This document shows, one piece after another, positions 2,700 to 26,607 of a stretch of 41,290 nt of DNA. The translations under genes were made by a program, and so were the position numbers. Position 1 is the stretch's first letter. The number at the start of each line of letters is the position of its first letter. The stretch lies in contig NHJO01000010.1 of the NCBI GenBank assembly GCA_002169695.1, positions 2,653 through 43,942 of the forward strand, in the 5' to 3' direction. The notes below the pieces were generated by a model. The model ran no database searches. It saw only the letters and a list, made by a program, of their open reading frames with translations, and had not been told where the DNA came from. The stretch is from a bacterium TMED217. GTDB taxonomy: Bacteria > Fidelibacterota > Marinisomatia > Marinisomatales > UBA1611.

Positions 2700-3410
2700 C
2701 TATATAGAAAAACCAGATTTCTTGGCATCCTCATAAAACATTTTTACAGTTTCTAAAGAGAACTCATCTAAATCTTTTCCAAAATCTTTATGATAGGCAT
2801 TAATGAGCGAGAAAGGAACGGTAATTATGTCGGTATTGGTTCTTGAAGCTTCAACAATATTAAAAATTTCGCGAGTACTTGCCCATAGAGTTTCTACTAA
2901 AGGATGTTCTTTTGTTAATTCAGCTGCGAATTGCATTGTTGGTTCTGGATCTTGTCCAACATTTGCTATCCTACCAGCAAAAATTGATATAATAGAGCTA
3001 ACATTAGGATTTAATGCACCATAAACTTTTTCAATATGTTCGTGAGTAAATAGAGCTGTGGCATTCACTTTAACACCTTCATTACTAAGCTTATGTATCA
3101 GATCATATGTTGGCTCAGATTTAGTATTAGTTACGGGAATTTTTACCCAAACATTATCACCCAAATCTCTTAAAATTAATGCCTGCCTGTACATTTCATC
3201 CAAATTATCAGAAAAAACCTCAAATGATATTGACTTTTCTTTAACATGCGACAAGACTTCTTTAGCGAAGGCTAAGTAGTCTGTGATTCCAAGTCTAGCC
3301 ATAAGTGTTGGGTTTGTTGTAAAACCGTCAATGAAGTTATCTTTAGACATTTTTATTATTTCATTAATATCTGCCCCATCTGCATAAATTTTAATTCCTA
3401 AATCATTCAT
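2700..3410 (-). CDS. Transaldolase / fructose-6-phosphate aldolase-like protein
   Basis: Class I (Schiff-base) aldolase of the TalC/FSA/MipB type, 236 residues, matching the short-transaldolase family. TTNPT (31-35) and VKIPVTN, with the probable Schiff-base Lys at 90, are both present, followed by NATALFTHEH, FAGRIANVGQDP and a TVPFSLI strand. The start at 3410 overlaps the upstream SIS stop in an ATGA arrangement, suggesting translational coupling; an ATG 15 nt further upstream is possible but less likely. It is the last gene of the minus-strand block. Next to SIS isomerases and a heptose-phosphate kinase, it plausibly supplies or remodels sedoheptulose 7-phosphate or a related ketose phosphate. 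The actual substrate is inferred, not shown. Confidence 0.85.
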   Translation of the reverse strand: MNDLGIKIYADGADINEIIKMSKDNFIDGFTTNPTLMARLGITDYLAFAKEVLSHVKEKSISFEVFSDNLDEMYRQALILRDLGDNVWVKIPVTNTKSEPTYDLIHKLSNEGVKVNATALFTHEHIEKVYGALNPNVSSIISIFAGRIANVGQDPEPTMQFAAELTKEHPLVETLWASTREIFNIVEASRTNTDIITVPFSLINAYHKDFGKDLDEFSLETVKMFYEDAKKSGFSI

Positions 3411-4003
3411 TTTACTGACTCCCATTTCATTTCATTAACTAATAATAGTGGATGTGCAACCAATAAATGCCAGACAACAGCTTGAAAAGCTTCAGTGTGA
3501 GGTGTAATATTTGCTTCATTTACCGTAGGAACTACAATACATTCATTAGCTACTTGCGCAGTATATCCTCCATCACGACCTACAACACCACAAATTTTGG
3601 ATCCAATCTCTTTAGCGAGTTTAAGTGATTGGAGAATATTAACACTAATATTCTTTTCTAGATTTCCTCCCCCCACAGAGAACACAAATAGCATATCTTT
3701 TTTACTTAATCGAGAACCTTTTAACCAATTAACATAACATGTGTCCCAACCATCATCATTTACTCTTGCTGTAAGCTCAGACACATTATCAGTTGGTGCA
3801 TAGCTTTCAATTCCACATATTTTACGGAAATCATTGACAGCATGTCCTGCATGCCCAGCCCCTCCACCAACACCTAAAAAGAAAATTCGGCCCTGATCTT
3901 GCCTAACAGAATTAATTATTTCAGCCATTTTTTCAATTTTATTAGGATCTATTGAATTACAAATTTCTATACATTCTTCTAAGTATGTCTTTGAAAAGTT
4001 CAT
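3407..4003 (-). CDS. SIS-domain sugar-phosphate isomerase, divergent GmhA-like
   Basis: A 198-residue SIS protein of the phosphoheptose-isomerase branch. The glycine-rich phosphate loop reads GVGGGAGHAGH (44-54) where GmhA has GNGGSA, and the second loop is SVGGGN (109-114) instead of STSGNS. A TPHTEAFQ segment with E171 and H179 sits where GmhA has its catalytic Gln and His. These changes suggest a related but different sugar phosphate from that of the gmhA at 2138-2698. GGAGT lies 4 nt before the ATG. It is translationally coupled to the transaldolase through a 4-nt overlap, and 71 nt separate it from the sugar transferase upstream in the operon. The precise substrate is unknown. Confidence 0.85.
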   Translation of the reverse strand: MNFSKTYLEECIEICNSIDPNKIEKMAEIINSVRQDQGRIFFLGVGGGAGHAGHAVNDFRKICGIESYAPTDNVSELTARVNDDGWDTCYVNWLKGSRLSKKDMLFVFSVGGGNLEKNISVNILQSLKLAKEIGSKICGVVGRDGGYTAQVANECIVVPTVNEANITPHTEAFQAVVWHLLVAHPLLLVNEMKWESVK

Positions 4004-4074: not shown

Positions 4075-4707
4075 CTATTTACCTGAGCCCTTAAAAACTA
4101 CAATAATTGTTTTAAAAAAAATCTTGGTGTCTAGCCATAAAGACCAATTATCTATATACTCTAAATCTAAATTTACCCACTCATCAAAGCTTGCTATATC
4201 ATTTCTTCCTCTTATTTGCCAAAGACAAGAAATCCCTGGAACTACACTTAGTTTCCTGTAGTGCCAATCTTTATAATTGGGAAATTCATTAAAACCAGCA
4301 GGTCTCGGTCCAATAAAACTCATATCTCCTTTTAAAACAGAGAAAATTTGTGGCAACTCATCTAAACTAAACTTTCTTAATACATGACCAATATTAGTTA
4401 TTCTAGGATCATTTTCCATCTTAAAAACTGGGCCATCCATTTCATTTGATGCTTCTAATTTTTCTTTTTCAAGATCAGCAAATCTATGCATGGTTCTGAA
4501 TTTATAACCTATGAATCTTTTTCCTTGAATACCATGAACATTCCAGGCGTAGAAGATTGGAAGACCGTTAAATAATCCAACTAAAAGAGCTATTAGTATA
4601 AATATAGGCCCTAAAAAAATCAATAAAGCGAGTGAGAATACAATATCGAGAAATCTTTTGACTCCATAATAAAGAAATCTATTTGTTATTTTATTTTTCT
4701 CAATCAT
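4075..4707 (-). CDS. Undecaprenyl-phosphate sugar phosphotransferase (initiating transferase)
   Basis: Transfers a sugar 1-phosphate from a nucleotide sugar to undecaprenyl phosphate at the inner membrane, starting a repeat unit. It is a 210-residue minimal form like PglC/WcaJ C-terminal domains, with one hydrophobic segment (about 22-46) followed by KFRTMH (69-74), DELPQ (116-120) containing the catalytic Asp-Glu pair, GDMSFIGPRP (127-136) and PGISCLWQIRGR. There is no N-terminal multi-helix domain. The ATG overlaps the stop of the GmhB-like gene by 4 nt. Which sugar it transfers cannot be read from the sequence; the surrounding heptose and uronic-acid genes provide the candidates. Confidence 0.93.
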   Translation of the reverse strand: MIEKNKITNRFLYYGVKRFLDIVFSLALLIFLGPIFILIALLVGLFNGLPIFYAWNVHGIQGKRFIGYKFRTMHRFADLEKEKLEASNEMDGPVFKMENDPRITNIGHVLRKFSLDELPQIFSVLKGDMSFIGPRPAGFNEFPNYKDWHYRKLSVVPGISCLWQIRGRNDIASFDEWVNLDLEYIDNWSLWLDTKIFFKTIIVVFKGSGK

Positions 4708-5231
4708 ATCTTACTAATAATGATATTTTTAATATCATTTAGGCTATTAACTTTAAGTGGGTAGTTTAGTTCTTTATTATGACTACGTGAAACTAAAATA
4801 AAAGAAACATTGGCATTGTTGGCACAATCTCTATCTGCAACAGAGTCACCAACAAAAAAACTTTTAGAAAAATCAATTTTCCATTTCTCTTTTGCATCTA
4901 ACAACATCCTTGGAGAAGGTTTTTTACTTCCATTCTTAGACACTTTGCTATCAAATGAATAATATATTTCGTCAATATGTAATTTTTTATTTATTGCTAT
5001 ATCTATTTTATTTAGCTCTTTTATAGACATTTTTTTTCTTGATATATCTGGTTGATTTGATACAATAAAAATTAAATATTTATTTTCTATTAAGAAGTCA
5101 ACACATGTCTTTATGTCATCGTAAAAATCAAATTCATTAAATGTTCTAGGAGAAAAAAACCCCCCATCTCTTAATACGAGCTTATTGATGACTCCATCTC
5201 TATCAAAAAAAATTGCTTTATTATTATACAT
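4704..5231 (-). CDS. HAD phosphatase, GmhB-like (heptose 1,7-bisphosphate 7-phosphatase type)
   Basis: HAD-IIIA phosphatase of 175 residues resembling D,D-heptose 1,7-bisphosphate phosphatase. It has FFDRDGVIN (Asp10 nucleophile, Asp12 acid/base), SNQ (58-60), KKPSPRM (103-109) and FVGDSVADRD (metal Asp129 and Asp133). The zinc-binding Cys/His loop that typical GmhB proteins carry just before the RKPxPGM motif is absent: the stretch at about 86-103 contains no Cys or His. It may therefore be a zinc-less relative or act on another sugar phosphate. The start overlaps the Gfo/Idh/MocA gene by 8 nt. In this operon it would remove the 7-phosphate after the GHMP kinase step, which is an inference from context. 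Confidence 0.85.
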   Translation of the reverse strand: MYNNKAIFFDRDGVINKLVLRDGGFFSPRTFNEFDFYDDIKTCVDFLIENKYLIFIVSNQPDISRKKMSIKELNKIDIAINKKLHIDEIYYSFDSKVSKNGSKKPSPRMLLDAKEKWKIDFSKSFFVGDSVADRDCANNANVSFILVSRSHNKELNYPLKVNSLNDIKNIIISKI

Positions 5232-6207
5232 CTACTGGTTGATTTTTTTTACTAGAGGTATATATAGCATCTACGACTATGTTGGCTTGATAGCCGTTAT
5301 CAAATTGTTCTTTTTTAAGAATTAATTCTTTAAAAAATTTCCATTCTTTCTTCCAAGAGTTATCATTTTCAGAAAAAGAAAAATTTTGTATTTCTGGTAT
5401 TCCACCTTTCAAATTTCTAATACCCAAAGTAAGTTTTTCTTCTCCATAAGAACCTCCTAGTCCATTAATGCTTAGGAAGCCATTAGAGCCATAGATATTA
5501 AATTCAAACTTATTTTTCCAATATATCCATCCTACAGAAAATAATAAGTTACTATTATCTTCATATAGTAACATAAAAGATGCAGAATCTTCTACTTTGG
5601 ATTTCCAAGCTAATTTTCCTGTAGTTCCAAATACCTTATTAGGCATTCCTTTAAATAAAAGGGCTAAATCAATCAAATGTACTCCCTGATCTAACAATTC
5701 TCCACCTCCACTTAAAGCTGGATTCATTCTCCACTCTTCCTCCATTCCCGGCCTACCTCCGTGACCATAGTGGCCATGTATATGCAAAACATTTCCTATC
5801 TTATTACTATCAATCAAGTCTTTTGCTTTTAAGATAGAGGGATGAAACCGATGATTGAATCCAGTATATAATATCTTATTATTTTTCTTTGCACACTCTG
5901 TAATTTCTTTACTTTCAACGACATTTTTCCCTAGTGGTTTTTCAGATAGTACATGTTTCTTGCTATTTAATGCTTTAATAGCAATTTCTTTAATCAAGTA
6001 GTTTGGTGTGGAAATAATAATAATATCAATATCTTTATTATTGATAATATCGTTATAGTTATTCGTAAAATTTGCATTTACTTTCTTAGCCAAATTCTTG
6101 GCTTGATTATTGTTGGTGTCACATACAATATGGATATTCTCTGATGGAATACTTAAGGCTCTTTTTTCTCCAATTAAACCACAACCAATAATAGCAACAT
6201 TCATCAT
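5224..6207 (-). CDS. Gfo/Idh/MocA-family oxidoreductase
   Basis: NAD(P)-dependent sugar dehydrogenase or reductase. It begins MNVAIIGCGLIGEKR, a Rossmann GxGxxG, and continues with the NYLIKE and SEKPLGKN (Lys-Pro) motifs of the family and the GGGELLDQGVHLID segment with its catalytic-type Asp and His. The frame is open 138 nt further upstream, but that stretch lies inside the SDR gene in another phase and has no family match. The tandem ATGs at 6207 and 6204, one base after the SDR stop, are the natural start. About 327 residues is normal. It probably oxidises or reduces a sugar nucleotide or sugar intermediate together with the adjacent SDR; the substrate is unknown. Confidence 0.88.
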   Translation of the reverse strand: MMNVAIIGCGLIGEKRALSIPSENIHIVCDTNNNQAKNLAKKVNANFTNNYNDIINNKDIDIIIISTPNYLIKEIAIKALNSKKHVLSEKPLGKNVVESKEITECAKKNNKILYTGFNHRFHPSILKAKDLIDSNKIGNVLHIHGHYGHGGRPGMEEEWRMNPALSGGGELLDQGVHLIDLALLFKGMPNKVFGTTGKLAWKSKVEDSASFMLLYEDNSNLLFSVGWIYWKNKFEFNIYGSNGFLSINGLGGSYGEEKLTLGIRNLKGGIPEIQNFSFSENDNSWKKEWKFFKELILKKEQFDNGYQANIVVDAIYTSSKKNQPVDV

Positions 6208-6208
6208 A

Positions 6209-7066
6209 TTAAGATTTGTTTGTAAAAAATTTTTCGTCAATTCTACGTAAGGTTGCAAAATCATTATCAGATTTAAGCTTTTCTTGAAAAAAATCCTCTT
6301 TCCAAGGATCCCAAGGAGCTGATATAAATTTCCCATTAATACCATTGGAGCTATCAGAAAGTAAGAATACAGTTAAGTCAGCTGCTTTCTCTGGAGGAAT
6401 TCCGCCTTCTTTCATCTGTTTTTTAGTATTATCGTAAAAATTAGATCCTACTACACTAGAGCCAGTGCTTATAGTTTGATCGTGCAATCTAGTAATAACA
6501 AAACCTGGAGCTACAGAATTAATATCAAATTTATTATCTTTAAGCTCTATTGAAAAATTCTCAGTAAACCTAACAATTGCAGCCTTACTTGAAGCGTATG
6601 CAGAATAGTTAGGAAAAGGAGAAGCTGCTCCTCCTCCAGAAAAATTTACTATTTTTTTATTGCTTTTAGATTTTAGTAGTGGTGCTATAGCACTGCACAT
6701 ATATACTGTACCAAGCAAATTTATATTAATAGCTTTAGTAAAATCTTCCATATTTACGTTTGTTGTTTTTCCTATCGGGCCATAAATCCCAGCGCAATTA
6801 ACTATTCCATCAATATCTAAATTTTTATCTTTAATCCATTCAGCAAAAACATTTACAGCTTTTAAATCGCTAACATCTAATGAATATGCTAAATGATTCT
6901 TGTCAGATATAGAACATATCTTTTTTAAAGAGCTATTCAAATCATTTTGGTTACGAGCTACAATAATTACTTCAGCTCCTTGCATGGCGCATGCCTTCGC
7001 AACTGCAAAACCAATTCCTAGACTACCACCTGTAACTATTATTTTTTTTGATTTTAATTCATTCAT
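6209..7066 (-). CDS. Short-chain dehydrogenase/reductase (SDR)
   Basis: Classical SDR of 285 residues with TGGSLGIG (12-19), a CAGIYGP segment corresponding to NAG, Ser143, and the catalytic YASSK (Tyr157, Lys161). The C-terminus extends about 40 residues beyond a typical 245-residue SDR and is rich in charged and aromatic residues (PWDPWKEDFFQEKL), which may form a substrate lid or contact a partner. Translation is supported by a perfect AGGAGG 5 nt before the ATG, lying inside the upstream gene, whose end it overlaps by 8 nt. It sits between a nucleotide-sugar dehydrogenase and a Gfo/Idh/MocA enzyme, so a role in modified-sugar synthesis is likely. The substrate cannot be inferred. Confidence 0.88.
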   Translation of the reverse strand: MNELKSKKIIVTGGSLGIGFAVAKACAMQGAEVIIVARNQNDLNSSLKKICSISDKNHLAYSLDVSDLKAVNVFAEWIKDKNLDIDGIVNCAGIYGPIGKTTNVNMEDFTKAININLLGTVYMCSAIAPLLKSKSNKKIVNFSGGGAASPFPNYSAYASSKAAIVRFTENFSIELKDNKFDINSVAPGFVITRLHDQTISTGSSVVGSNFYDNTKKQMKEGGIPPEKAADLTVFLLSDSSNGINGKFISAPWDPWKEDFFQEKLKSDNDFATLRRIDEKFFTNKS

Positions 7067-8351
7067 TATTACCTCCTAATGAATAATAAGTTATTTTATT
7101 TTCTTTAATTATTTTTCCATCAAGAAAATTTTTAGTATCAAATATAATTGGTGTTTTCATTTTTTCTTTAATTATATCCCAATCTAAATGTTTAAACTCT
7201 TCCCATTCAGTAAGTAAAATAAGAAGATCTACATCAGATGAAACATCGTCAACGTCTTTTGCAATTATAAACTTTGGTTCAGAATTTAATTCTGTATAAT
7301 CAGCCTTAGGATCAAAAACCTTAACACTTATTTTTTCTTTCATAAGTAGATTAACTATTTCTAATGGCAAACTACGTCTTAATGTGCTTGTACCTGGTTT
7401 GTAAGTCAAGCCAAGTATACCAACAGTTTTTTCTTTTTCATTGCGAAGAAGTTTAACAATTTTTTTAGTAATAATAGTCTTTCTTTCAAGATTTGCTTTA
7501 TGGATATGGCCAAATAAATTAGCATGACCTGATTTTTTTGTATTAAAATCATCTAACACTTTTAAATCTCGACCTAATGTACCTCCAGAAAACCCAATAC
7601 CTGGAGATAGGTATGCTTTTTTACCTATTCTTATATCTGATTTCATCCCATTTACAACATCATTAATATTTGCGCCAGATTCTTCACAAATATCAGAGAG
7701 GTTGTTAGCAAAAACAACACTAAGCGCTAGAAAAGAGTTTATTCCATGCTTTACTACCTCTGAACTTTCAATATTCATTGTTAATATATTATCCGTTATA
7801 CTTTCTAAAAAAGACAAGCATCTTCTTTCAGTTTCTTTATTTGAAGTACCAAGTATTATTCTTCCAGGATTAAGATAGCATTCTATAGCTTCTCCTAATC
7901 TTAAATTTTCAGGAGAGTAAGCAAGATTGAGAGTATTATTTTTTTTAATTAATATTTTTTCAAGATTTGAGCAATAACCGACTGGCGATTGTGAGCTAAC
8001 AATAAGTATGGAGTTATCCTTCATAATGCTTGCTACATCATCAACTGATTTCTCTAATATTGTTACATCGCAAGAATCATTATTATCTACCGGTGTATCA
8101 TATGACAGTAAAATGAAATCACAATCATTGAGTGCTTCTATATTATTAGAAAAATTTAAAGTATTATTTTTTAGCCCATAATTGATAGTTTTATTGAGAT
8201 TAGGTTCAAAAACTGGTGAAATGCCATTTAATAAATCATCTACTCGGCTTTTTTCGTAGTCGAAACCTACAACTTCATATCCTAACTTTGACCAAGAAGC
8301 ACAAAGAACACTACCTAAATGCCAAAGCCCTATAACTCCAACCTTTTTCAT
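7059..8351 (-). CDS. UDP-glucose/GDP-mannose dehydrogenase-family protein lacking the catalytic Cys
   Basis: 430 residues with all three domains of the nucleotide-sugar dehydrogenase family. The N-terminal NAD domain reads IGLWHLG, so Trp10 replaces the second Gly of GxGxxG. The central dimer helix has SEVVKHGINSFLA, with Lys201 and Asn205 at the expected catalytic places. The C-terminal UDP-binding domain has GLTYKPGTSTLRRS and VKVFDPKA. The block normally written GFGGSCFPKD reads GFSGGTLGRD (253-262), so the cysteine that forms the thioester is Thr258. A normal four-electron oxidation to a uronic acid is therefore unlikely; a two-electron or other redox step is possible. The start overlaps the GHMP kinase stop by 4 nt. 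Confidence 0.9.
   Translation of the reverse strand: MKKVGVIGLWHLGSVLCASWSKLGYEVVGFDYEKSRVDDLLNGISPVFEPNLNKTINYGLKNNTLNFSNNIEALNDCDFILLSYDTPVDNNDSCDVTILEKSVDDVASIMKDNSILIVSSQSPVGYCSNLEKILIKKNNTLNLAYSPENLRLGEAIECYLNPGRIILGTSNKETERRCLSFLESITDNILTMNIESSEVVKHGINSFLALSVVFANNLSDICEESGANINDVVNGMKSDIRIGKKAYLSPGIGFSGGTLGRDLKVLDDFNTKKSGHANLFGHIHKANLERKTIITKKIVKLLRNEKEKTVGILGLTYKPGTSTLRRSLPLEIVNLLMKEKISVKVFDPKADYTELNSEPKFIIAKDVDDVSSDVDLLILLTEWEEFKHLDWDIIKEKMKTPIIFDTKNFLDGKIIKENKITYYSLGGNNE
7072..7077 (-). promoter_or_regulatory. Strong Shine-Dalgarno AGGAGG inside an upstream gene
   Basis: A perfect AGGAGG on the minus strand lies 5 nt before the SDR ATG (7066), within the 3' end of the nucleotide-sugar dehydrogenase gene, so the SDR can be initiated independently of coupling. 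It also shows that this organism uses Shine-Dalgarno initiation. Confidence 0.85.
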
Positions 8352-9337
8352 CTATGATTAGAGATAATTTTGGATCCATCTAGATCAAATGAATAATTTA
8401 ATTCTTTCAGTCCCTTAGATGCCATGGCACTTCTTAATAACTGGTGATTTTTATTACAGTAAAAAGTAAAAAATCCGCCGCCGCCAGCGCCAGATATTTT
8501 TCCTCCTATTGCACCATTATTCAAAGCAGTATCATAAATAGAGTCAATTCTATCATTTGTTACACCAGAAGATAGCTTTTTTTTCATCTCCCAATGATCT
8601 CTAAACATAGAGCCTAACTCATCTAAGTGACCAGATTGAATAATGTCTAAAATTGTATATCCAGATTCTTTAATATAATGCAGAGAATTAAGCACTTCTG
8701 CGTTATTTTTCTTTGTTGAACTATCTTGTTCGTTTAAAATTTTATTATTTTTTCTTTGTTGTCCAGTATAAAAGATTAGAAGATTTCTGTTCAAATCATT
8801 CATAATTGATTTTTCTAAAATAATTTTTGTAGGAGTGACTATACCCTTTTTATCGATATCAAGCCTTACGAATCCACCGAGTGCTGCCAAATACTGGTCT
8901 TGCTTACCCATTGGTTTTTTTAAAATATCCATTTCAATGGTACATGCTTCATCAGCTAAAAATTCTAAGCTCTTGTACTTACCTTGCGATGAATACAAAG
9001 CGTTTAATAAGCCGACTGTGTAGGTACTAGAACTTCCTAAGCCAGATCCTGCTGGAATATCTGACAAAGATGCAATTTCAATCTTTGAATGAATACCTAC
9101 TCTTTGAAAACATGCCTTGGCTATATCATGATCTAATTCATCAACAGATTCTACAATTTCAGATTTACTATATTTTAATCGAATTAAATCATCAGCCGAT
9201 GGACGATTTAAACAAACATACATATACTTCGATAGACAAAAACTAAAAATAAATCCGCCGTGATTTTCGTAATAGCTAGGCAAATCAGTTCCGCCTCCGC
9301 CTAAAGTAATTCTAAATGGTGTTCTTGAAACAATCAT
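8348..9337 (-). CDS. hddA: GHMP kinase, D-glycero-D-manno-heptose 7-phosphate kinase-like
   Basis: Predicted to phosphorylate the anomeric position of heptose 7-phosphate, giving the 1,7-bisphosphate. It starts with SRTPFRITLGGGGTDLPSYY, characteristic of HddA and related sugar kinases, then PAGSGLGSSS (95-104, the GHMP phosphate loop), KKPMGKQDQY with the catalytic-type Asp, and GGKISGAGGGGF at the C-terminus. Its 329 residues are near the HddA norm of about 340. Neighbouring genes encode a GmhA-like isomerase and a GmhB-like phosphatase, which supports the heptose assignment over fucokinase-type alternatives. The usual HddC guanylyltransferase is not found beside it. A second, unrelated heptose kinase (HldA type) is at 35047-35985. 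Confidence 0.82.
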   Translation of the reverse strand: MIVSRTPFRITLGGGGTDLPSYYENHGGFIFSFCLSKYMYVCLNRPSADDLIRLKYSKSEIVESVDELDHDIAKACFQRVGIHSKIEIASLSDIPAGSGLGSSSTYTVGLLNALYSSQGKYKSLEFLADEACTIEMDILKKPMGKQDQYLAALGGFVRLDIDKKGIVTPTKIILEKSIMNDLNRNLLIFYTGQQRKNNKILNEQDSSTKKNNAEVLNSLHYIKESGYTILDIIQSGHLDELGSMFRDHWEMKKKLSSGVTNDRIDSIYDTALNNGAIGGKISGAGGGGFFTFYCNKNHQLLRSAMASKGLKELNYSFDLDGSKIISNHR

Positions 9338-9341
9338 ACAA

Positions 9342-10259
9342 TCAAATTACATGTTCTTTTATATAATCTATAGATTTTTTTAGTCCATTACTTAAGCTTA
9401 CTTTAGGGGACCAGCCAATTTTTTGAGCTTTATCAATATTAGCTAAATTTTCTTGAGCCTCAAAATCAAAATTTTGACCAAATATTGGTTTAATATCCAA
9501 ATTTAGTATGTCTGTTATATTTTTATAAATTGATTTAATAGAATAGTTTTTTCCAGAACCTATGTTAAAAATATCATTATTTGTGTCTGCATTTTCAATG
9601 CACATTAAATGAAATCTATTGACGTCATCAACATAGATAAAATCTCTTTTTTTAGATCCATCTCCAAAAATAGTTGGGCGCTTATTATTTAAAAGATTTA
9701 TTATAAATGCACTAAAAACTGGCGGTATAGTTCTTCTGTAGTCTTGTCTAGGTCCATAAACATTAAAATATCTTAACCCAGTGGTTATCAAACCTTTTGT
9801 TTTAAAATAATCTTTAGCAATCAAATTTGTTGTGATTTTTGATATAGCATATATACTCTCTGGAGCAATATCAGATTCTTTGCTTGGCAATACTTTTGAC
9901 CCCTCATAAACAGCTGAAGATTCAGCATAAATAACTTTTTTAACATTATTTTTTAATGCTGCATCAAAAATATTAATTGTTCCGTTTACATTAATATCAA
10001 ATGTTTCAAGCGGATTTTCTTGACAGTCAGTAATACAGTTTTTAGCAGCTAAATGAAATACATAATCTACTTTCTCAAATAATTGAGAAATATTTTTATC
10101 TCTAATATCTATTTTATGAAATATAACTCCTTTTGGGATTTGATCTTTAACACCATATGATAAATTATCAATGCCTATAACAGTAAAATTTCTCTTTAAT
10201 AAAGAATGAGCAAGATTACTTCCAATGAATCCAGCTACTCCGGTAATTAAAATTTTCAT
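9342..10259 (-). CDS. NAD-dependent sugar-nucleotide epimerase/dehydratase
   Basis: Extended SDR of 305 residues resembling UDP-hexose 4-epimerases (GalE/WbpP type). It has GVAGFIG (7-13), HLAAKN, AESSAVY with the catalytic Ser, YAISK (Tyr137, Lys141), LRYFNVYGPRQ, and the GDGSKKRDFIYVDDV sugar-binding block. The gene stops 4 nt upstream of the GHMP kinase start and follows a 66-nt gap after the LhgO-like gene. It may epimerise the activated heptose or a UDP-hexose(uronate). The family is certain, the substrate is not; this window encodes several such paralogs and sequence alone does not separate their roles. Confidence 0.88.
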   Translation of the reverse strand: MKILITGVAGFIGSNLAHSLLKRNFTVIGIDNLSYGVKDQIPKGVIFHKIDIRDKNISQLFEKVDYVFHLAAKNCITDCQENPLETFDINVNGTINIFDAALKNNVKKVIYAESSAVYEGSKVLPSKESDIAPESIYAISKITTNLIAKDYFKTKGLITTGLRYFNVYGPRQDYRRTIPPVFSAFIINLLNNKRPTIFGDGSKKRDFIYVDDVNRFHLMCIENADTNNDIFNIGSGKNYSIKSIYKNITDILNLDIKPIFGQNFDFEAQENLANIDKAQKIGWSPKVSLSNGLKKSIDYIKEHVI

Positions 10260-11487: not shown

Positions 11488-12351
11488 ATGATGAAGATTA
11501 AAGAAAAGATTGGAGTAATTGGTGCAGGATTTGTTGGTAGTTCTGTAAAATTCGGTTTTTCTCCACAAACAAACTGTGATGCAGAAGTGCTAGTAAATGA
11601 TAAAAAAGAAGAACTATCAACCCATTCGCTTATAGAAATTATAGAAAAATGTTCAATTATATTTATATCAGTGCCAACACCATCTAATCCTGACGGGAGT
11701 GTAAATACAGATATTATTAATAATCTGTTTGAAGACATATTGGAAATTGAGGGTCACGAAAAACCTATCTTTTTATTAAGATCAACTGTTGTTCCTGGAA
11801 CCTGCTTAAGTTTTGCAGAAAAATTTCCTGCTCTCAAACTAGTATTTAATCCTGAATTTTTAACAGAGAGAAGTGCAAAACTAGATTTTATTAATCAATC
11901 TAGGTATATATTAGGTTCCAATCATGACGAGTATATCGAACCGGTTGCTAATCTCTATAAACAAAGATTTGGTTCAACAATATCCATTATTAGAACGAAT
12001 TTTGAAACTGCTGAACTTATTAAATATATGAATAATTGTTTCTTTGCTACAAAAGTATCATTCCTCAATGAAATGTATATGATTGCAGAAAAATCTGGTG
12101 CTGATTGGGATATGGCTGTAGAAGGTTTTGTTCGTGATGGAAGAATTGGTCATAGCCATTTAGCTGTACCAGGGCCAGATGGGAAATTTGGATTTGGTGG
12201 AAGTTGCTTTCCTAAAGATATGAGGGCAATTATTGCATATGCTAAATCAAATGGAATCGATCTTAATACATTGTCAGGGGCTTGGGAAACAAATCTTGAA
12301 GTTAGACCTGATAAAGACTGGGAAGAACTCAAAGGACGATCTGTAGTTTAA
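11488..12351 (+). CDS. Short UDP-glucose 6-dehydrogenase-like protein lacking the C-terminal nucleotide-binding domain
   Basis: 287 residues with the NAD-binding IGAGFVGSS, VPTPSNPDG, RSTVVPGT and NPEFLTERSA motifs, the central helix ELIKYMNNCFFATKVSFLNE, and a normal catalytic block GFGGSCFPKD with Cys240. It ends about 45 residues after the Cys, so the UDP-binding domain of the usual 390-450-residue enzyme is missing. The stop is followed after 1 nt by the wecE stop on the other strand, so no detached domain remains downstream. It may be a natural short form acting on another substrate or with a partner. It is the only plus-strand gene between 2700 and 29473. AGAGGA precedes the tandem ATGs. 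Confidence 0.88.
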   Translation: MMKIKEKIGVIGAGFVGSSVKFGFSPQTNCDAEVLVNDKKEELSTHSLIEIIEKCSIIFISVPTPSNPDGSVNTDIINNLFEDILEIEGHEKPIFLLRSTVVPGTCLSFAEKFPALKLVFNPEFLTERSAKLDFINQSRYILGSNHDEYIEPVANLYKQRFGSTISIIRTNFETAELIKYMNNCFFATKVSFLNEMYMIAEKSGADWDMAVEGFVRDGRIGHSHLAVPGPDGKFGFGGSCFPKDMRAIIAYAKSNGIDLNTLSGAWETNLEVRPDKDWEELKGRSVV

Positions 12352-16978: not shown

Positions 16979-18498
16979 TTTAACTTTTTGAGAGTATAAA
17001 GTTTATATGTATTATTCTTTGAAGAAAAAGTCAATTCAAAATATTGATTTATATTAGATAATATACTATTAGGTAATCCATTGAGATAATCCGTGGATGA
17101 AATAAAAGTATCAATATTATACTTTTCAATCAGAAAGTCTAAATGTTCTAAATTTAGGATAGGATATTTATGAAGGATTTTATCCATATTCTCAATATGA
17201 TGATCTGAAAAACCAATTGTTGAATTTAGTACTCTGTGGTTTGTAGATAGCATTAGATTACACCCTCCTGCAACATATAAAGGGTTAGCTATAATATTTC
17301 TTTTGTTGTCAAAATTATTCAAATAAGCATATATCTCTTCGTCTTCGTCAAAAGAATTTTTATCATATGTTTCATATATAAATAATAACTCTATACAGTA
17401 AAGTAATATATAAAAAGAAATAAAAAATAATAATGTCTGAGTATCAAACAATTCACCAAAAATAATAATTATAGGAAATAAGACATGTAGTAAATATCTC
17501 TCTGCCTCACCTAAAAATAAAAACTTTTTTGTATTTATGACTAAAAATAAAATTAATGATAAAATAATATAGGTGATAAAGAAGGTATATTGACTATTAT
17601 GCAAGAAAAATAATACATAGAAAAAGGGTAAAAATTTAATAAACGTGCTTGTAAAACTATTTTCTTTATAAACTTGCTTAAAAAGCAACTTAATACTACC
17701 AGAAAAAAATAATTCAATAATCTCTTTGAAAGAATTTCTATTGGAAAAGTGCATATCATTATTTTTATTTTTCCAAAAATAAACTTTCAAATGCTCTACT
17801 TGTGCCTTGATAGCAATTTTTTGCTTCTTATCAAGAACATACGATATAATAAAAATTGTAATGCTTAAAAACATAGGTATATAATCTCCATTTAAAATCA
17901 TAGCTGGGATTAATAATAAAAAAAATACCTGGAGTGCAAATTTTGAAAGGTAAATAAATATTAAAGATAAAAATAAGAAAAGAATAATGAAAATAGGATC
18001 TAAATTATTAAATGCATACAAGCTAAAAATCATAAGACTAGAAACTATCTCTGAGAACAATCTTGGAGTAAAAGAAAAAACTCTAGGACCAAGATTAGTT
18101 ATGCTATAAGAAAAAGGTATTAAAAGATACAACACTACCAAAAGAAAACTTTTATAATCTGTAAATCCAAAATGTTGCAATACCATAAACATAGATAATG
18201 AGAACAGTAAATCAACTACTACATTAAAATAATTTTTTATAAAATCTAGACTTAGAAATCGTAAAAAAAGGCTTGCAAAATATGGATATAAAGCATGATT
18301 ATCTATAGACGAAAATAGAAGAAACTGCTTATTTAATTTCTTACCATTCCTTTTGTTAAATAAATGTCTAATCACATATATATAATAATATCCATCCTCA
18401 GAATATCTGTGAATCTTTTTAGAGCTTAAAAAAATTGGGATTAGCCTTAGTAGCAAGAAACAAAATATGAGTAGTGCTAAATAAAAAGAGAAATTCAT
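16975..18498 (-). CDS. Large polytopic membrane protein, possible GT-C glycosyltransferase
   Basis: 507 residues with about 10-12 hydrophobic helices followed by a soluble C-terminal part of about 120 residues. Right after the first helix comes SEDGYYYI (33-40), an acidic, aromatic loop motif in the place where GT-C glycosyltransferases carry their catalytic Asp/Glu. The C-terminal part has IANPLYVAGGCNLMLSTNHR and IGFSDHH, like periplasmic domains of polyprenyl-phosphate-sugar-using enzymes. It is coupled to wzx and to the Wzy candidate by 4-nt ATGA overlaps. A periplasmic glycosyltransferase decorating the repeat unit is plausible. No family name can be given with confidence. Confidence 0.6.
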   Translation of the reverse strand: MNFSFYLALLIFCFLLLRLIPIFLSSKKIHRYSEDGYYYIYVIRHLFNKRNGKKLNKQFLLFSSIDNHALYPYFASLFLRFLSLDFIKNYFNVVVDLLFSLSMFMVLQHFGFTDYKSFLLVVLYLLIPFSYSITNLGPRVFSFTPRLFSEIVSSLMIFSLYAFNNLDPIFIILFLFLSLIFIYLSKFALQVFFLLLIPAMILNGDYIPMFLSITIFIISYVLDKKQKIAIKAQVEHLKVYFWKNKNNDMHFSNRNSFKEIIELFFSGSIKLLFKQVYKENSFTSTFIKFLPFFYVLFFLHNSQYTFFITYIILSLILFLVINTKKFLFLGEAERYLLHVLFPIIIIFGELFDTQTLLFFISFYILLYCIELLFIYETYDKNSFDEDEEIYAYLNNFDNKRNIIANPLYVAGGCNLMLSTNHRVLNSTIGFSDHHIENMDKILHKYPILNLEHLDFLIEKYNIDTFISSTDYLNGLPNSILSNINQYFELTFSSKNNTYKLYTLKKLK

Positions 18499-19790
18499 TT
18501 TATTAAAAATCCTGATTCAATAAATAAGTTAATAAGCATTATAAACAAAGAAATATATACATATTTAAAATTCAATTTTATTGTGCTGTTTTTCTTTGAT
18601 AAGAAAAAGACTATTATAAAAGTTGAAAAATAGAAAAGGAGTAAAGAAAACAGTAAACTAGTCACACTTAATACACTCAGGTATAAAGACAAACTAAAAA
18701 TAATAGCTCCAATAAAAAAAGCTATAAAATTATATATAGTCTTAAAATTTAAATTATGAACTAACAAAAAATAATTAATTAAAAGATTAAAAAAGTTTGC
18801 AAGGAATAGATATGGCATAAACATTGCTAAGTCTTCAAACCTATATGATAAAAAATAGATATTTAAAAAATAGAAACTTATAATCATAAAAATATTGAAG
18901 TATAAAAGCAATTCTGTATACTTTATAAAAACATTTTCCATTAATGATTCAACATTTTCTGTTCTATCTTTTTTTATCATAACAGGGTCTACTATGAAGC
19001 GAAAAACTTCATTAAAAAAAAGATACGCCATAGAAATTCTTAAACCCATACTATAATTACTTAATGTTAAATCATTAAAATTATTAAGAACAAAAATTCT
19101 ACTAAACATTAGTACTCCAAAACTAATAGCTACCACTGGAATGATATTAATAGAATATTTTAGATACTTTGTGATTGTAGGAATTGAAATTTGAAATGCA
19201 TCTTTACTTGCCTTAGTGAAAAGAATATAAAATAAGATAGAAAGCTTTGGCATTGAAAAGAGTATTAACAAATATTCAATGGACAATAAATTTTTTAAAT
19301 AAAAAAACCCTAATAAAGAAAAAAATGTGATTATTTCATAAATGATTGCTGCAATATATATCTTATATATGGCTTCAAATCTAAAGTAGATCAATACAAG
19401 GCTGTATATTAAGTTAATAATTACAAAAAGCAGGAGATAAATCGATAGATTGGAATTATCAAATTGAAAAAATCTAGGATTAAATAATTGTAAAAGTGAG
19501 AAAAATAAGATTGATCCAAATAAATAGATTAATATTACATTAAATATTGATTTAGACAGTTGATTATTTTCTTTGTCAATATAATAATATCTAGCAAATG
19601 CAGATTCTGCCTGAAGACCAAAAACCATGACTCCAAAATATCCAATAGAATATATTGTTTCAAATAATCCATATTCATTGTGTGATAAGATATAAGCTAA
19701 GATAAAGAAAATGCTATATGAAAAAACTTTTTGTAAAATATTTATTATAACTACTAAGGATAATGGCTGTGAAGTTATAATATTCATCAT
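18495..19790 (-). CDS. wzx: O-unit flippase (Wzx / polysaccharide biosynthesis family)
   Basis: 431 residues with about 12 hydrophobic helices evenly spaced. The N-terminal pattern is typical of Wzx/MOP-superfamily transporters: the LSLVVIINILQKVFSYSIFF helix, then LSHNEYGLFETIYSIGYFGV and AESAFARYYYIDKE. It would move undecaprenyl-diphosphate-linked repeat units across the inner membrane. It lies 5 nt after asnB and overlaps the following membrane-protein gene by 4 nt. Tandem ATGs (19790, 19787) make the exact start uncertain by one codon. Confidence 0.88.
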   Translation of the reverse strand: MMNIITSQPLSLVVIINILQKVFSYSIFFILAYILSHNEYGLFETIYSIGYFGVMVFGLQAESAFARYYYIDKENNQLSKSIFNVILIYLFGSILFFSLLQLFNPRFFQFDNSNLSIYLLLFVIINLIYSLVLIYFRFEAIYKIYIAAIIYEIITFFSLLGFFYLKNLLSIEYLLILFSMPKLSILFYILFTKASKDAFQISIPTITKYLKYSINIIPVVAISFGVLMFSRIFVLNNFNDLTLSNYSMGLRISMAYLFFNEVFRFIVDPVMIKKDRTENVESLMENVFIKYTELLLYFNIFMIISFYFLNIYFLSYRFEDLAMFMPYLFLANFFNLLINYFLLVHNLNFKTIYNFIAFFIGAIIFSLSLYLSVLSVTSLLFSLLLFYFSTFIIVFFLSKKNSTIKLNFKYVYISLFIMLINLFIESGFLIK

Positions 19791-19795
19791 ATAAA

Positions 19796-21634
19796 TTAAT
19801 CATTTAAGAAAGTATTGAGCCATATTTCAAAATTAATTAATGACCAAATCAATAATCTTTTATTATCTCTTCCGGAAAAATGTATATCTACTATATTTGC
19901 TACGCTATCAAAATCAAGATAGTTATACATCGCTGCATTTTTATTCTTTATAAGACCTCTAACATACTCAATACTATTTCCCTTGAACCAAGATCCATCT
20001 GGACCAGAAAAACCTTGTTTTTTATTATTAGAATATTCCTTTGTAACATAATTTTCAAATACTCTCCTAAGAACAATTTTACCATCGCTGGTTTGATTCG
20101 TAAATGTTTCTTCATTATGAACTAGTTTTTCTAGCTTATGTTTTATGGGAATTTTCATAGCAAAATCTACTAAATCATTATCTAAAAATGGGACTCGAGT
20201 TTCCAGACCAAATGACATACTAATCTTATCTTCTAGTGTTAATAAACCTTGTAAAAAAGTCTGACATTCAAAGTGTAAAGATTTATTGATATAATCTTCA
20301 TTGGTATTCAAAAAAGATTTTTTATTGAATTTACCTGCAAAAGATTCAAATGAATAATTTTCTGTCTCTTTAAAAAGAGATGGCTTATAAAGACTTCTCT
20401 TTTCTCTGTCATGTAAAATTCTTGACCAATATTTATAGTATTTACCAATATATTCTTCAGGATTTTTATTATTACTAGAATATTGATACCTCCAAGGATA
20501 ACCTGCAAAAAGCTCGTCTCCTCCAACTCCAGAAAATACAACTGTTACGTGTTTTTTAGCTAATTTTGCAGCATAATAATTAGGATATGATTGCCCAACT
20601 ACGGGATTTTCAATAATTGGAATAAGATCACCTAAACAAGATTCCATATCATTTGAACTTAATATCGATTCATAATGATTTGTTTTATATAAATCAGACA
20701 AAAATTTTGCTTTGGTCCTCTCATCAAAATTAATCTCCATTCCTGATATAGATTTCATATCAAAACCTATTGTAAATGTTTTCAGTTGATCAAATTTAGT
20801 TGATGCAACAGCTGTGATAGCTCCAGAATCCATGCCGCCACTAAGATAAGATCCAATTGGGACATCAGACATTAACTGTTTTTCAACAGATAACTTAAAT
20901 AACCTATCGACTTCTTCAATTGCATCATTTTTTGATATTGAATGATCTTCTTCAAAATTAAATTCCCAAAACTTTGTGGCTTTATTTGTTTTTTTGTTTA
21001 AATCATATATCATAAATGTCCCCGCATCAACCATATTAATGTCCTTGAATAAGGTTTCATTGTTGAGATTATTTTGAAAAGTAAAATATTGATCTAAAGC
21101 GTTTTTATTCAAATCAACAGATACATGGGGATGTGTCAATATAGGTTTAATTTCTGATGAAAAAATCAATAGACTCTGATTATTAAAATAATATAGAGGT
21201 TTAGTTCCATACCTATCTCGAGCTACAATTAATTTATTTTCGGATCTATCCCATATAATAGTAGCAAAGATTCCATCGAATAAATTAAAGCAGTCTGTTC
21301 CCCATTCTTGATAAGCATTAATTATTACCTCGGAATCTGTTTTAGATTTAAAAGTGTAACCTTTTTTAATTAAATCTTTTTTTATTTTTTTATAATTATA
21401 AACCTCTCCATTATAAGATAAAACATATCGATTGTTGTTAGAAAGCATGGGTTGTTTGCCATTTTCTGATAAATCTAGTATCTTTAATCTCTTATGTCCT
21501 AAAAACAGATTTTTTTCTGACCAAAAGCCTTCTCCATCTGGACCTCTATGCTCCATCTTCGAGCACATTCTTTTCATCAATAATAAATCAATTGGCTTAT
21601 TATCAAGATTAGTTAAAGAAAAAATACCGCACAT
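19796..21634 (-). CDS. asnB: Glutamine-hydrolysing asparagine synthetase-like amidotransferase
   Basis: 612 residues with the two domains of AsnB. The N-terminal class II glutaminase starts MCGIFSL (Cys2 nucleophile) and has HRGPDGEG (29-36) and SYNGEVYN (73-80). The C-terminal ATP-pyrophosphatase domain has LSGGMDSG (264-271) and the GVGGDELFAGYPWR block. Many O-antigen clusters carry such a protein (WbpS/WbmI-like), thought to amidate the carboxyl group of a uronic acid rather than aspartate. Here it sits among uronic-acid genes: a UDP-GlcA 4-epimerase and WbpB/WbpE homologs. The gene is 3 nt from the upstream epimerase stop. Sugar amidation is inferred; true asparagine synthesis remains possible. 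Confidence 0.9.
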   Translation of the reverse strand: MCGIFSLTNLDNKPIDLLLMKRMCSKMEHRGPDGEGFWSEKNLFLGHKRLKILDLSENGKQPMLSNNNRYVLSYNGEVYNYKKIKKDLIKKGYTFKSKTDSEVIINAYQEWGTDCFNLFDGIFATIIWDRSENKLIVARDRYGTKPLYYFNNQSLLIFSSEIKPILTHPHVSVDLNKNALDQYFTFQNNLNNETLFKDINMVDAGTFMIYDLNKKTNKATKFWEFNFEEDHSISKNDAIEEVDRLFKLSVEKQLMSDVPIGSYLSGGMDSGAITAVASTKFDQLKTFTIGFDMKSISGMEINFDERTKAKFLSDLYKTNHYESILSSNDMESCLGDLIPIIENPVVGQSYPNYYAAKLAKKHVTVVFSGVGGDELFAGYPWRYQYSSNNKNPEEYIGKYYKYWSRILHDREKRSLYKPSLFKETENYSFESFAGKFNKKSFLNTNEDYINKSLHFECQTFLQGLLTLEDKISMSFGLETRVPFLDNDLVDFAMKIPIKHKLEKLVHNEETFTNQTSDGKIVLRRVFENYVTKEYSNNKKQGFSGPDGSWFKGNSIEYVRGLIKNKNAAMYNYLDFDSVANIVDIHFSGRDNKRLLIWSLINFEIWLNTFLND

Positions 21635-21637
21635 AAG

Positions 21638-22480
21638 CTAATTTCTATTCACGCATCGATTTAAGCCATCATCAATTTCAGTAAAAACTAAATTACTAAA
21701 ATAATTTTTAATCTTACGTATTGACCCAATTGCATACGCTGGCTCAGCATTGATCTCTTCGATATTAGCTTTAATATCAAGTATTTTCTCCAACTTTAAA
21801 ACTATATCATGTAGACTTAATATCTCTGGACCTCCAATATTAAAAATGTCACAACATTCATTTTTTTTATCAATAAATCTTTGAAAAATTTGAACTAAAT
21901 CATCAATATATATAGGATTAATATATAGTCCTTTACAAGATGCCAAGGGGATATCTTCAGAATTTTTTATTTTATTAATCATATTTGGGATAAGCATATT
22001 ATTCTGGTCAGGACCATATGCTCCAAATATTCTTAAAATTATAGTATCAAAAAATTTGCTATATGATTGAATCATTAATTCGCTAGTAAACTTACTTACG
22101 CCATAAAATGAATTTGGACTCGGAGTATCCGATTCTTTCTTTTCTCCTTTAGAATTATCATATACACTTCCAGTAGAAGCAAAAATAAATTTTTTAATTT
22201 TATTCATTCTAGCCCATTCTAAAATTTCTGCAGTAGAATCAATATTTACTTTCCTTACATCAGTAGCACCTTCTGGAAAATTTCTATATAATGAAGATTG
22301 AGCTAAATGAATAACAATATCTATTTCATTTTTAGGTAAATTTTTAGTCCAACCATCATGAGATAAATCAAATCCATTTTCTCTAGATGCTTCCAATATT
22401 TCTATAGAATTATTATTTTTAAGAAATGAAACTAAATTTGTGCCAATAAAACCTGTACTCCCTGTAATTAAAATTTTCAT
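21638..22480 (-). CDS. NAD-dependent epimerase/dehydratase
   Basis: Extended SDR of 280 residues: GSTGFIGTN near the N-terminus, HLAQSS, ASTGSVYDNS with the catalytic-type Ser, YGVSK (Tyr/Lys pair), LRIFGAYGP, and an INPIYIDDL sugar-domain segment. It is shorter than GalE and has a compact C-terminal domain, resembling reductases or epimerases that act on nucleotide-linked keto sugars. The neighbours are another epimerase (9 nt upstream in the operon) and asnB. The reaction is unknown. It could finish one of the amino- or uronic-acid sugars made here. Confidence 0.85.
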   Translation of the reverse strand: MKILITGSTGFIGTNLVSFLKNNNSIEILEASRENGFDLSHDGWTKNLPKNEIDIVIHLAQSSLYRNFPEGATDVRKVNIDSTAEILEWARMNKIKKFIFASTGSVYDNSKGEKKESDTPSPNSFYGVSKFTSELMIQSYSKFFDTIILRIFGAYGPDQNNMLIPNMINKIKNSEDIPLASCKGLYINPIYIDDLVQIFQRFIDKKNECCDIFNIGGPEILSLHDIVLKLEKILDIKANIEEINAEPAYAIGSIRKIKNYFSNLVFTEIDDGLNRCVNRN

Positions 22481-22489
22481 TTAATAAAA

Positions 22490-23461
22490 TTAAAGTTTCA
22501 ACTCTCGCCATTCTATCAACTTAATCAAACCCTCTTTGAGAGAGTAGGCAGATTCAAAACCAATATCTTTCTGTGCTTTAACTTTGGAACCAATTCTATT
22601 TTGAACCAACCTTCTAGCATCTTCTTCTGAATATGGCATGTACTTAACCTTTAAATCTGATTTTTTTAGCTCAAGTATTAAATCACATAATTCCTTAATT
22701 GATGTTTGAATTTCCGTGCCAACATTATAAAATTCATCTACAGCTTCTGATTTAAGAGCACAAATATTCGCTTTTGCAGCATCTTCAACATATATAAAGT
22801 CATATGCTTGGCTTCCATCTCCATTGATGGCTGGTTCTTCATTAGCATCAATTTTATTTAACATAATAGGGACTACTCCTGTATATGCAGCTGTTTGATC
22901 TTGACCAGGACCATATACATTCATATATCTTAGTCCGACATAATTAAGTTCGTATCTATCATGAAATGCTCTACACATTGCTTCTCCAGCAATTTTAGTT
23001 GCGCCGTAAAAATTCTTATTATTGAATGGATGATCTTCTTTCATTGGAACTTTGACTGCATCTCCATATACAGATGCAGATGAAGAATATACTAGCTTTT
23101 CAATATTGTTCTTTGCACAAGCTTCTAACACATTAAAAGTACCTTGAATATTAACATCAAATGCAGTCCTTGGATAATCTTTACAATGTAATAGCCACAT
23201 TGCAGCAAGATGAACAACATAATCACATCGGCTAATAGCGTCATCTAAAATATCAATATCTCTAATATCGCCTCCATGCTCATATACTTTACATCTCGGA
23301 TCTTTCATTGCTTCTACAATATTGGCAGCTTTTCCTCTAACAAAATTGTCATAAATTAGAACTGAGTCTATTGGTTCTTTTAAAAGCTCTAATACTACAT
23401 GAGAACCAATAAATCCTCCGCCTCCAATGACTAATACTTTTTTATCTTTTAATGAATTCAT
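22490..23461 (-). CDS. NAD-dependent sugar-nucleotide epimerase
   Basis: Extended SDR of 323 residues with GGGGFIGSH at the N-terminus, HLAAMWLLHCKDYP, SSSASVYGDA, YGATK as the catalytic Tyr/Lys pair, LRYMNVYGPGQDQ, and GDGSQAYDFIYVEDAA. It resembles UDP-glucose/UDP-GlcNAc 4-epimerase relatives found in O-antigen loci. The unusual WLLHC segment after HLAAM may shape the substrate pocket. Its ATG overlaps the UDP-GlcA 4-epimerase stop by 4 nt, so the two are probably co-translated. The substrate is not identifiable from sequence alone. Confidence 0.87.
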   Translation of the reverse strand: MNSLKDKKVLVIGGGGFIGSHVVLELLKEPIDSVLIYDNFVRGKAANIVEAMKDPRCKVYEHGGDIRDIDILDDAISRCDYVVHLAAMWLLHCKDYPRTAFDVNIQGTFNVLEACAKNNIEKLVYSSSASVYGDAVKVPMKEDHPFNNKNFYGATKIAGEAMCRAFHDRYELNYVGLRYMNVYGPGQDQTAAYTGVVPIMLNKIDANEEPAINGDGSQAYDFIYVEDAAKANICALKSEAVDEFYNVGTEIQTSIKELCDLILELKKSDLKVKYMPYSEEDARRLVQNRIGSKVKAQKDIGFESAYSLKEGLIKLIEWRELKL

Positions 23462-24432
23462 ATTTTTATCCTATAATATTGTTTATACCAGTTAATAAAA
23501 TTTTCAACGCCATCTTCAATTGAAGTACTGGGAGAGTAAAGCAGGTCAGACTTTGCTTTTTCTATATCTGCACAACTTTTTTGAATATCTCCTTTTTGCA
23601 TTGGCAAAAAGTTTATTTCTGCCTTTTTACCAATATTTTTCTCGATTGTCTCAATTAGATACATTAATTCAACAGTTTTATTGTTTCCAAGATTATAAAT
23701 GTCAATTTCTTTTTCCAGGCTCAGTGAATGATATATCCCAGAAACAATATCATCAATATACGTAAAGTCTCTTTGCATTTTCCCGAAATTGAAGACATCA
23801 ATTTTTTTATTTTTAAGAATAGCATCTGTAAATAAAAATAATGCCATATCAGGCCTTCCCCATGGACCGTAGACAGAAAAAAAGCGCAATCCAATAGATT
23901 CTAACTTAAAAAGTTTAAAATATGAATATGCCATTAATTCATTAGATTTTTTAGTAGCTCCATAAAGAGAAATTTGAGAATCTGTCACATGATTTTCGCA
24001 TGAAGGACTGGCAGTATTATCTCCATATACCGACGAACTAGAAGCATAGACTAATTTTTTTACTTTATATTTCCTAGCAAGTTCTAATATATTTACAAAA
24101 CCTGCTAAATTTGAGTTTACATATGCATGAGGATTTTCTAAGCTATATCTTACGCCAGCTTGTGCTGCTAAATTTATAATATGAGTAATATGATTCTCTT
24201 TCATTAATATGTCTATAGTGTCCATATCAGTTAAATCACACTTTACAAATGAAAAATTTTCAAATTTTTTTAATATATCTAGCCGATCTTTTTTTAATTG
24301 AGTGTCATAATAGTTATTAAGGTTATCAATACCACATACCTTCATATTCTTATTTAATAAAAATAAACTGGTATGAAAACCTATAAATCCTGCCGACCCA
24401 GTAACTAATATATTCATATTTTTATTGCTCAT
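23458..24432 (-). CDS. UDP-glucuronate 4-epimerase
   Basis: Interconverts UDP-glucuronate and UDP-galacturonate. The 324-residue sequence follows the GlcA 4-epimerase family closely: GSAGFIGFH, DNLNNYYD, AAQAGVRYSLENP, YVNSNLAGF, YASSSSVYGDN, SLYGATKKSNELMA, RFFSVYGPWGRPDMALF, and RDFTYIDDIVSGI. This is more specific than the other epimerases in the window. The ATG at 24432 overlaps the upstream dehydrogenase stop (ATGA); a second ATG at 24417 directly precedes the NILVTG motif and could also be used. Its substrate needs a UDP-glucose dehydrogenase. The two such proteins encoded here are both atypical, so UDP-GlcA may come from elsewhere in the genome. Confidence 0.92.
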   Translation of the reverse strand: MSNKNMNILVTGSAGFIGFHTSLFLLNKNMKVCGIDNLNNYYDTQLKKDRLDILKKFENFSFVKCDLTDMDTIDILMKENHITHIINLAAQAGVRYSLENPHAYVNSNLAGFVNILELARKYKVKKLVYASSSSVYGDNTASPSCENHVTDSQISLYGATKKSNELMAYSYFKLFKLESIGLRFFSVYGPWGRPDMALFLFTDAILKNKKIDVFNFGKMQRDFTYIDDIVSGIYHSLSLEKEIDIYNLGNNKTVELMYLIETIEKNIGKKAEINFLPMQKGDIQKSCADIEKAKSDLLYSPSTSIEDGVENFINWYKQYYRIKI

Positions 24433-26515: not shown

Positions 26516-26607
26516 TACTTCCCCATAATTTTATTATCATACTTTTTTACGTTATATATGTACATATTTAATCAAACTTTACAATCAAAAAAAATAAAAC
26601 AATAATA
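26516..26607 (-). promoter_or_regulatory. AT-rich gap inside the O-antigen block, possible internal promoter
   Basis: This 92-bp gap between rmlA and the WbpE-like gene interrupts an otherwise tightly packed block. On the minus strand TTGATT (26583-26588) is followed after 16 nt by TATGTA (26561-26566), and TTTGATT is repeated 13 nt on. This could be a weak internal promoter. In such AT-rich sequence the match is not strong evidence. No stable hairpin with a T tract was seen. Confidence 0.25.

Follow-up and report, generated by a model that had tools for sequence, protein, structure and literature searches.

A nucleotide-sugar dehydrogenase variant that lacks the catalytic cysteine, encoded within a cassette resembling octose biosynthesis genes

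Among the closest described systems are the lincosamide octose genes; for the enzymes LmbM, LmbL, CcbZ and CcbS of this pathway, a 2020 PNAS study reportedly describes 6-epimerisation, 6,8-dehydration, 4-epimerisation and 6-transamination. These genes encode a transaldolase (lmbR), an isomerase (lmbN), a kinase (lmbP), a phosphatase (lmbK), a guanylyltransferase (lmbO), an epimerase (lmbM), a C8 dehydrogenase (lmbL) and an oxidoreductase (lmbZ) (PMC4351081). LmbR joins fructose 6-phosphate or sedoheptulose 7-phosphate with ribose 5-phosphate to yield an octulose phosphate (PMC5854111), and GDP-octose is converted to GDP-lincosamide by LmbM, LmbL, CcbZ and CcbS (PMC12945683).

A second point of reference is the catalytic mechanism of nucleotide-sugar dehydrogenases (NSDHs). 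There are 18 residues that are invariant among 229 of these enzymes, and in S. pyogenes numbering Thr118 is the water residue of the published mechanism (PMC4794789). Asp264 acts as the base. Lys204 and Asn208 lend stability to the first oxidation, and the second proceeds with Cys260 as covalent catalyst (PMC4794789; PMC3184952).

The window analysed here is a stretch of 41,290 nucleotides from a contig of bacterium TMED217 (NHJO01000010.1). Positions 7059..8351 of its minus strand form an open reading frame for a protein of 430 amino acids (P0001), in which a profile search found PF03721, PF00984 and PF03720; the N-terminal, central and C-terminal domains score 114, 64 and 93.5 bits, respectively, all far over the cut-offs. 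The profile TIGR03026 (NDP-sugDHase) scores 306.8 bits, with a cut-off of 189.8. An AlphaFold model made from a seven-row alignment (mean pLDDT of 77.9) has the family fold, with low confidence at residues 243-283, and its best Foldseek matches are 3gg2 and the enzymes UgdG, BceC and human UGDH (prob 1.00 and TM ~0.8 for these three enzymes). Thus, P0001 belongs to the NSDH superfamily by fold and profile. Judged by its residues, however, it lacks the catalytic cysteine that defines UGDH, GMD and ManNAc dehydrogenase and should therefore not be classed with any of them. The cysteine block reads GIGFSGGTLGRD, wherein Thr258, located within the low-confidence stretch of the model, stands opposite the catalytic Cys of UgdG (4a7p), 3gg2 and BceC (2y0e) in an alignment with these solved enzymes. 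The NAD loop reads GLWHLG, where Trp10 takes the place of the second glycine in the Rossmann motif GxGxxG. Glu148, Lys201, Asn205, Asp262 and Lys318 are retained. A degenerate DNA pattern of the motif occurs once in the window and in none of 100 shuffles. A sequence-only reading of this DNA had pointed out both replacements, the three family domains and the retention of Lys201 and Asn205, and all of these are borne out by the reading frame, the Pfam matches and the alignment.

Fixed positions were compared between ten full-length rows that carry Thr and 22 Cys-type rows that include E. coli Ugd and WecC. The Thr set comprises nine distinct homologues from Bacteroidota, from Lawsonia and Rhizobium plasmids and from viral contigs. 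The position of the catalytic Cys (Cys260 in S. pyogenes, Cys276 in human) holds Thr in all ten rows and Cys in all 22 controls. Since the changes to Trp10 and Thr258 are both present in 10/10 full-length rows from independent contigs and in 0/22 Cys-type sequences, the sequencing error that could have undone the earlier claim is excluded. His11, Gln121, Asn149 and Leu152 are distributed in the same all-or-none manner. The earlier reading had not listed these further fixed changes, which are Tyr to His11, Thr to Gln121, Phe to Asn149, Glu to Leu152 and Gly to Ser255; the replaced residues include Thr131, Phe162 and Glu165 in human numbering. His11 stands in place of Tyr10, the position at which BceC was mutated for its 'final step' structures.

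In terms of the published invariant residues (S. pyogenes numbering), 14 of the 18 are retained in the Thr rows, namely Gly7, Gly12, Thr83, Ser117, Pro140, Glu141, Glu201, Lys204, Asn208, Asn219, Gly258, Asp264, Asn287 and, in nine of the ten rows, Lys320. The four that are lost are Gly9 (Trp10), Thr118 (Gln121), Gly257 (Ser or Ala; Ser255 in P0001) and Cys260 (Thr258). Glu148, Lys201, Asn205 and Asp262 are strictly conserved in 10/10 full-length rows. From this pattern we infer that the Thr clade has kept the hydride-transfer half of the mechanism and dismantled the thioester half. The loss of the thioester step suggested by the sequence-only reading is thereby supported, as the whole neighbourhood of thioester hydrolysis is altered in the ten rows relative to the 22. 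A four-electron, uronic acid-forming reaction by P0001 appears unlikely because the thioester residues are lost while those of the first oxidation (Lys, Asn, Asp and Glu141) are kept. For the choice of nucleotide, the positions that published work assigns to specific groups (indices 215, 359, 355, 366 and 406) give a mixed signal, wherein Leu208 is UDPGDH-like and Ser119 and Ile204 fit no group.

The motifs GLWHLG, PENLRLG, KH.IN, F.GGTL.RD and LRRS, together with SSQ.PVG or something very similar to it, are common to every full-length member. In a maximum-likelihood tree, the ten Thr rows lie on one side of a single branch (100/100) and the 22 Cys-type sequences on the other. The relatives were found in several places. 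A genome-contig scan (one run with a single-protein query) returned one relative, a homologue from a Bacteroidetes MAG (L001) that is 61% identical to P0001. Plasmid tblastn searches returned relatives in Rhizobium jaguaris, Rhizobium sp. CB3060 and Lawsonia intracellularis, and viral-contig scans returned L012, L014, L019, L020 and L021, of which the last two are near-identical. Among ~245 sampled genomes of the window's phylum, such a protein is found only in the window's own genome (726 bits with the family profile); the next-best proteins score at most 334 bits and have the canonical motif where inspected. Acquisition of the variant by transfer is likely. There is no compositional trace of such an event, with a GC content of 30.4% for the cassette versus 28.8% for the rest.

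The gene for P0001 overlaps its neighbours within a single minus-strand operon. An extended-SDR NDP-sugar epimerase/dehydratase, LmbM-type by family (9342..10259), is followed by a GHMP sugar kinase, HddA/LmbP-type by family (8348..9337), that overlaps the NSDH gene by 4 bp. On the other side, a classical SDR oxidoreductase that is a conserved cassette partner (6209..7066) overlaps it by 8 bp. Profile searches then place a Gfo/Idh/MocA oxidoreductase, LmbZ-type by family, at 5224..6345. The first ATG of this gene is probably too early; a real start near 6207, where the homologues begin, would also mean that it no longer overlaps the SDR gene over a long stretch. A HAD-IIIA phosphatase, GmhB/LmbK-type by family (4704..5231), precedes a Bac_transf initiating sugar transferase identified by Pfam (4075..4707), which links the operon to surface polysaccharide. 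The operon also contains a divergent GmhA-like SIS isomerase, LmbN-type by family (3407..4003), and a transaldolase, LmbR-type by family (2700..3425), that scores 292.7 bits with TIGR02134 (cut-off of 281.95). A cassette-type nucleotidyltransferase was not found in the window or in its 64%-complete genome. The window also holds a second sugar cluster on the minus strand (18495-28517) with an Asn synthase, several epimerases, a DegT aminotransferase, RmlA- and dehydratase-like genes and one 431 amino acid ORF that has no Pfam match.

Three cassette proteins miss the cut-offs of the corresponding heptose families, with 43 bits for gmhA (cut-off of 209), 79 for GmhB (250) and 162 for HddA (600). 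The cassette isomerase is only 26% identical to the canonical GmhA encoded next to it (2087-2698), which is one of two SIS_2 genes that the genome carries besides the cassette copy. Relative to this GmhA, the cassette isomerase has a deletion of five residues just past an Asp that aligns to the GmhA Glu. This Glu is the catalytic one of canonical GmhA. The Asp and the deletion, as read from the alignment, may enlarge the substrate site.

The roles that recur in other cassettes are the epimerase, NSDH, SDR, Gfo/Idh, GHMP kinase, nucleotidyltransferase, GmhA-like isomerase, HAD phosphatase and transaldolase. All nine, including the nucleotidyltransferase, are present in a changed order in the Bacteroidetes MAG, in the Lawsonia plasmid (L006) and in two Rhizobium plasmid loci (L005 and L007), and most are present in the viral contigs L012, L014 and L020. 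On the plasmid of Lawsonia intracellularis, a pig gut pathogen, the genes are annotated plainly, for example as nucleotide sugar dehydrogenase and transaldolase. Plasmid searches with the isomerase matched only Lawsonia, Rhizobium and weak gmhA sequences, and transaldolase matches on plasmids of Streptomyces, Treponema and Lactobacillus fall within loci that bear no relation to the cassette. Neither an aminotransferase nor a uronate-using partner of the NSDH is conserved. A genome of the same order as the window's bacterium (G047) has a syntenic cassette beside gmhA (L182, G047:C1:351000-370500) that is 71-85% identical gene by gene and lacks the NSDH. Its SDR is replaced, with 32% identity to the SDR of L001. 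Many viral cassettes likewise have the SDR and Gfo/Idh genes and no NSDH. These cases indicate that the NSDH is an optional tailoring step. The tree of the SDR proteins is partly clustered by NSDH presence or absence, and the separation is not clean.

There are 184 relatives of the cassette isomerase in viral contigs (IMG/VR) and none among 50,697 named phages. Of 80 viral contigs retrieved from these 184, 63 also carry the transaldolase and kinase, and 56 have the HAD phosphatase in addition. The typical order (L074-L144, e.g. L094:8998-12806) is isomerase, phosphatase, transaldolase, a gene for 334 amino acids and kinase. In L094 the 334 amino acid product is a glycosyltransferase, and the module is located close to genes for a T4-type RNase H and PhoH. 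Such modules are possibly a virus-encoded supply of octose or heptose. Viral contigs L022-L025, L073, L105 and L134 encode shrunken NSDHs of 223-275 amino acids that lack the C-terminal domain and have the Cys replaced by Thr, Ser or another residue (L022:7908-8693; L073:6550-7374; L105:5814-6482; L134:11471-12157), and some of these genes are beside the same SDR or cassette. A different short NSDH is encoded in the window itself (11488-12351, plus strand). This protein of 287 amino acids has an intact GFGGSCFPKD block, lacks the C-terminal UDP-binding domain and is 46% identical to a 280 amino acid ORF in viral contig L026.

We favour, with moderate confidence and on the strength of residues and gene neighbours, a role for P0001 as an NAD-dependent two-electron oxidoreductase that would convert the C6 secondary alcohol of an NDP-linked higher-carbon sugar to a 6-ketone. 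Here we infer the substrate, its chain length and nucleotide, the position of oxidation, the net reaction and the fate of the product. The NDP-sugar would be supplied by the successive action of the transaldolase, SIS isomerase, GHMP kinase, HAD phosphatase and nucleotidyltransferase. In a C7 or C8 pyranose, C6 is a secondary alcohol that the NSDH fold would set at the nicotinamide, where Lys201, Asn205, Asp262 and bound water would take the hydride and proton from this exocyclic carbon. The product would be a ketone rather than an aldehyde, formed without a thiohemiacetal, thioester or acid. Because a ketone is not oxidisable to an acid, the cysteine would not be needed, which would account for the disappearance in concert of Tyr10, the Cys and the Thr that binds water. 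Reduction or epimerisation of the keto-sugar might then fall to the SDR, Gfo/Idh and epimerase proteins, and the sugar would be built into surface polysaccharide. The earlier suggestion that a secondary alcohol of a different sugar is oxidised is therefore upheld by conserved neighbours of a higher-carbon NDP-sugar pathway; its proposal of a heptose nucleotide stands for the higher-carbon sugar and less well for the heptose. An octose is the most likely sugar and a heptose the less likely one, as a dedicated transaldolase and a third, divergent GmhA-like isomerase fit an octose better. This choice of chain length rests on these two proteins and the lincosamide parallel; a transaldolase could just as well supply a heptose pathway with sedoheptulose 7-phosphate.

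A redox-neutral reaction is an unlikely but serious competitor, which we weight roughly half as heavily as net oxidation. Tightly held NAD would oxidise C6 transiently and return the hydride after epimerisation or 6,8-dehydration, so that a 6-epimer or a 6-keto-8-deoxy sugar would arise without any net gain of NADH. This may have a parallel in the LmbM, LmbL, CcbZ and CcbS segment of the lincosamide pathway, which takes GDP-octose to GDP-lincosamide (PMC12945683), and the rebuilt NAD loop GLWHLG might mean tighter cofactor binding. However, the cassette holds separate epimerase genes, and there is no obvious new acid/base pair besides Thr258 and Gln121.

The remaining alternatives fare considerably worse. 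The thioester route should already be closed once the Cys is lost, which could leave a hexose enzyme halting at the C6 aldehyde to release an NDP-hexodialdose. This version of the earlier idea that the enzyme stops at an aldehyde is improbable: it needs the primary C6 alcohol of a hexose, while the genes conserved around P0001 make up a higher-sugar cassette and not a hexose set, and human UGDH with the C276A mutation still oxidises added aldehyde (PMC3184952). The same C276A activity, together with the family-type fold and TIGR03026 score, might be taken to favour an ordinary uronic acid-forming NSDH with Thr258 or another residue as nucleophile. Yet the equivalents of Thr118, Tyr10, Glu165 and Gly257 are replaced in every member, the C276S mutant accumulates a covalent adduct (PMC3184952) and no uronate-using partner accompanies the gene, all of which make this explanation very improbable. 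Least probable of all is a catalytically dead structural or regulatory paralogue, as the lost Cys and the shrunken viral forms might suggest, given the strict conservation of Glu148, Lys201, Asn205 and Asp262 in all ten rows and of the Lys and Asn even in the shrunken forms.

If the favoured oxidation or its redox-neutral variant holds, a four-electron NSDH fold has been turned into a two-electron or redox-neutral enzyme by some six fixed substitutions. The signature GLWHLG ... SSQ.PVG ... PENLRLG ... F.GGTL.RD ... LRRS would then stop the automatic misannotation of such proteins as UDP-glucose dehydrogenase. More tentatively, and as less likely than not, a pathway for activated octoses may have spread horizontally outside antibiotic producers, reaching the surface-polysaccharide loci of several phyla as well as a large number of uncultivated viruses, wherein Cys-less NSDHs would serve as dedicated C6 (or 6,8-dehydrating) enzymes with a minimal two-domain form in viruses. 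From the linked cassette, the surface glycans of bacteria are predicted to contain C8 (or modified C7) sugars, and uncultivated phages to possess a pathway for carbohydrates.

Compared with known systems, P0001 shares with the UGDHs of human, S. elodea (UgdG) and B. cepacia (BceC) the three-domain fold, the Lys/Asn/Asp/Glu residues and the UDP-binding C-terminal domain. It is only ~26% identical to these enzymes and differs from them at Cys to Thr, Thr131 to Gln, Glu165 to Leu, Tyr10 to His and the Rossmann Gly to Trp. The GDP-D-glycero-D-manno-heptose pathway (GmhA, HddA, GmhB and HddC) draws on the same superfamilies for its isomerase, kinase, phosphatase and nucleotidyltransferase, whereas the cassettes described here have their own transaldolase and, for the three members tested, scores under the heptose cut-offs. 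There is no PDB entry for LmbL among the structure-database matches of P0001, and the 'C8 dehydrogenase' LmbL/CcbL, an enzyme of the same class surrounded by the same list of roles, is likened to P0001 by this gene list. The full set of LmbR/N/P/K/O/M/L/Z-type roles is present in L001, L005 and L006, and the window misses only the nucleotidyltransferase. Unlike the lmb and ccb clusters, these cassettes are found in Gram-negative polysaccharide loci and viral contigs, carry an extra classical SDR and lack a conserved aminotransferase.
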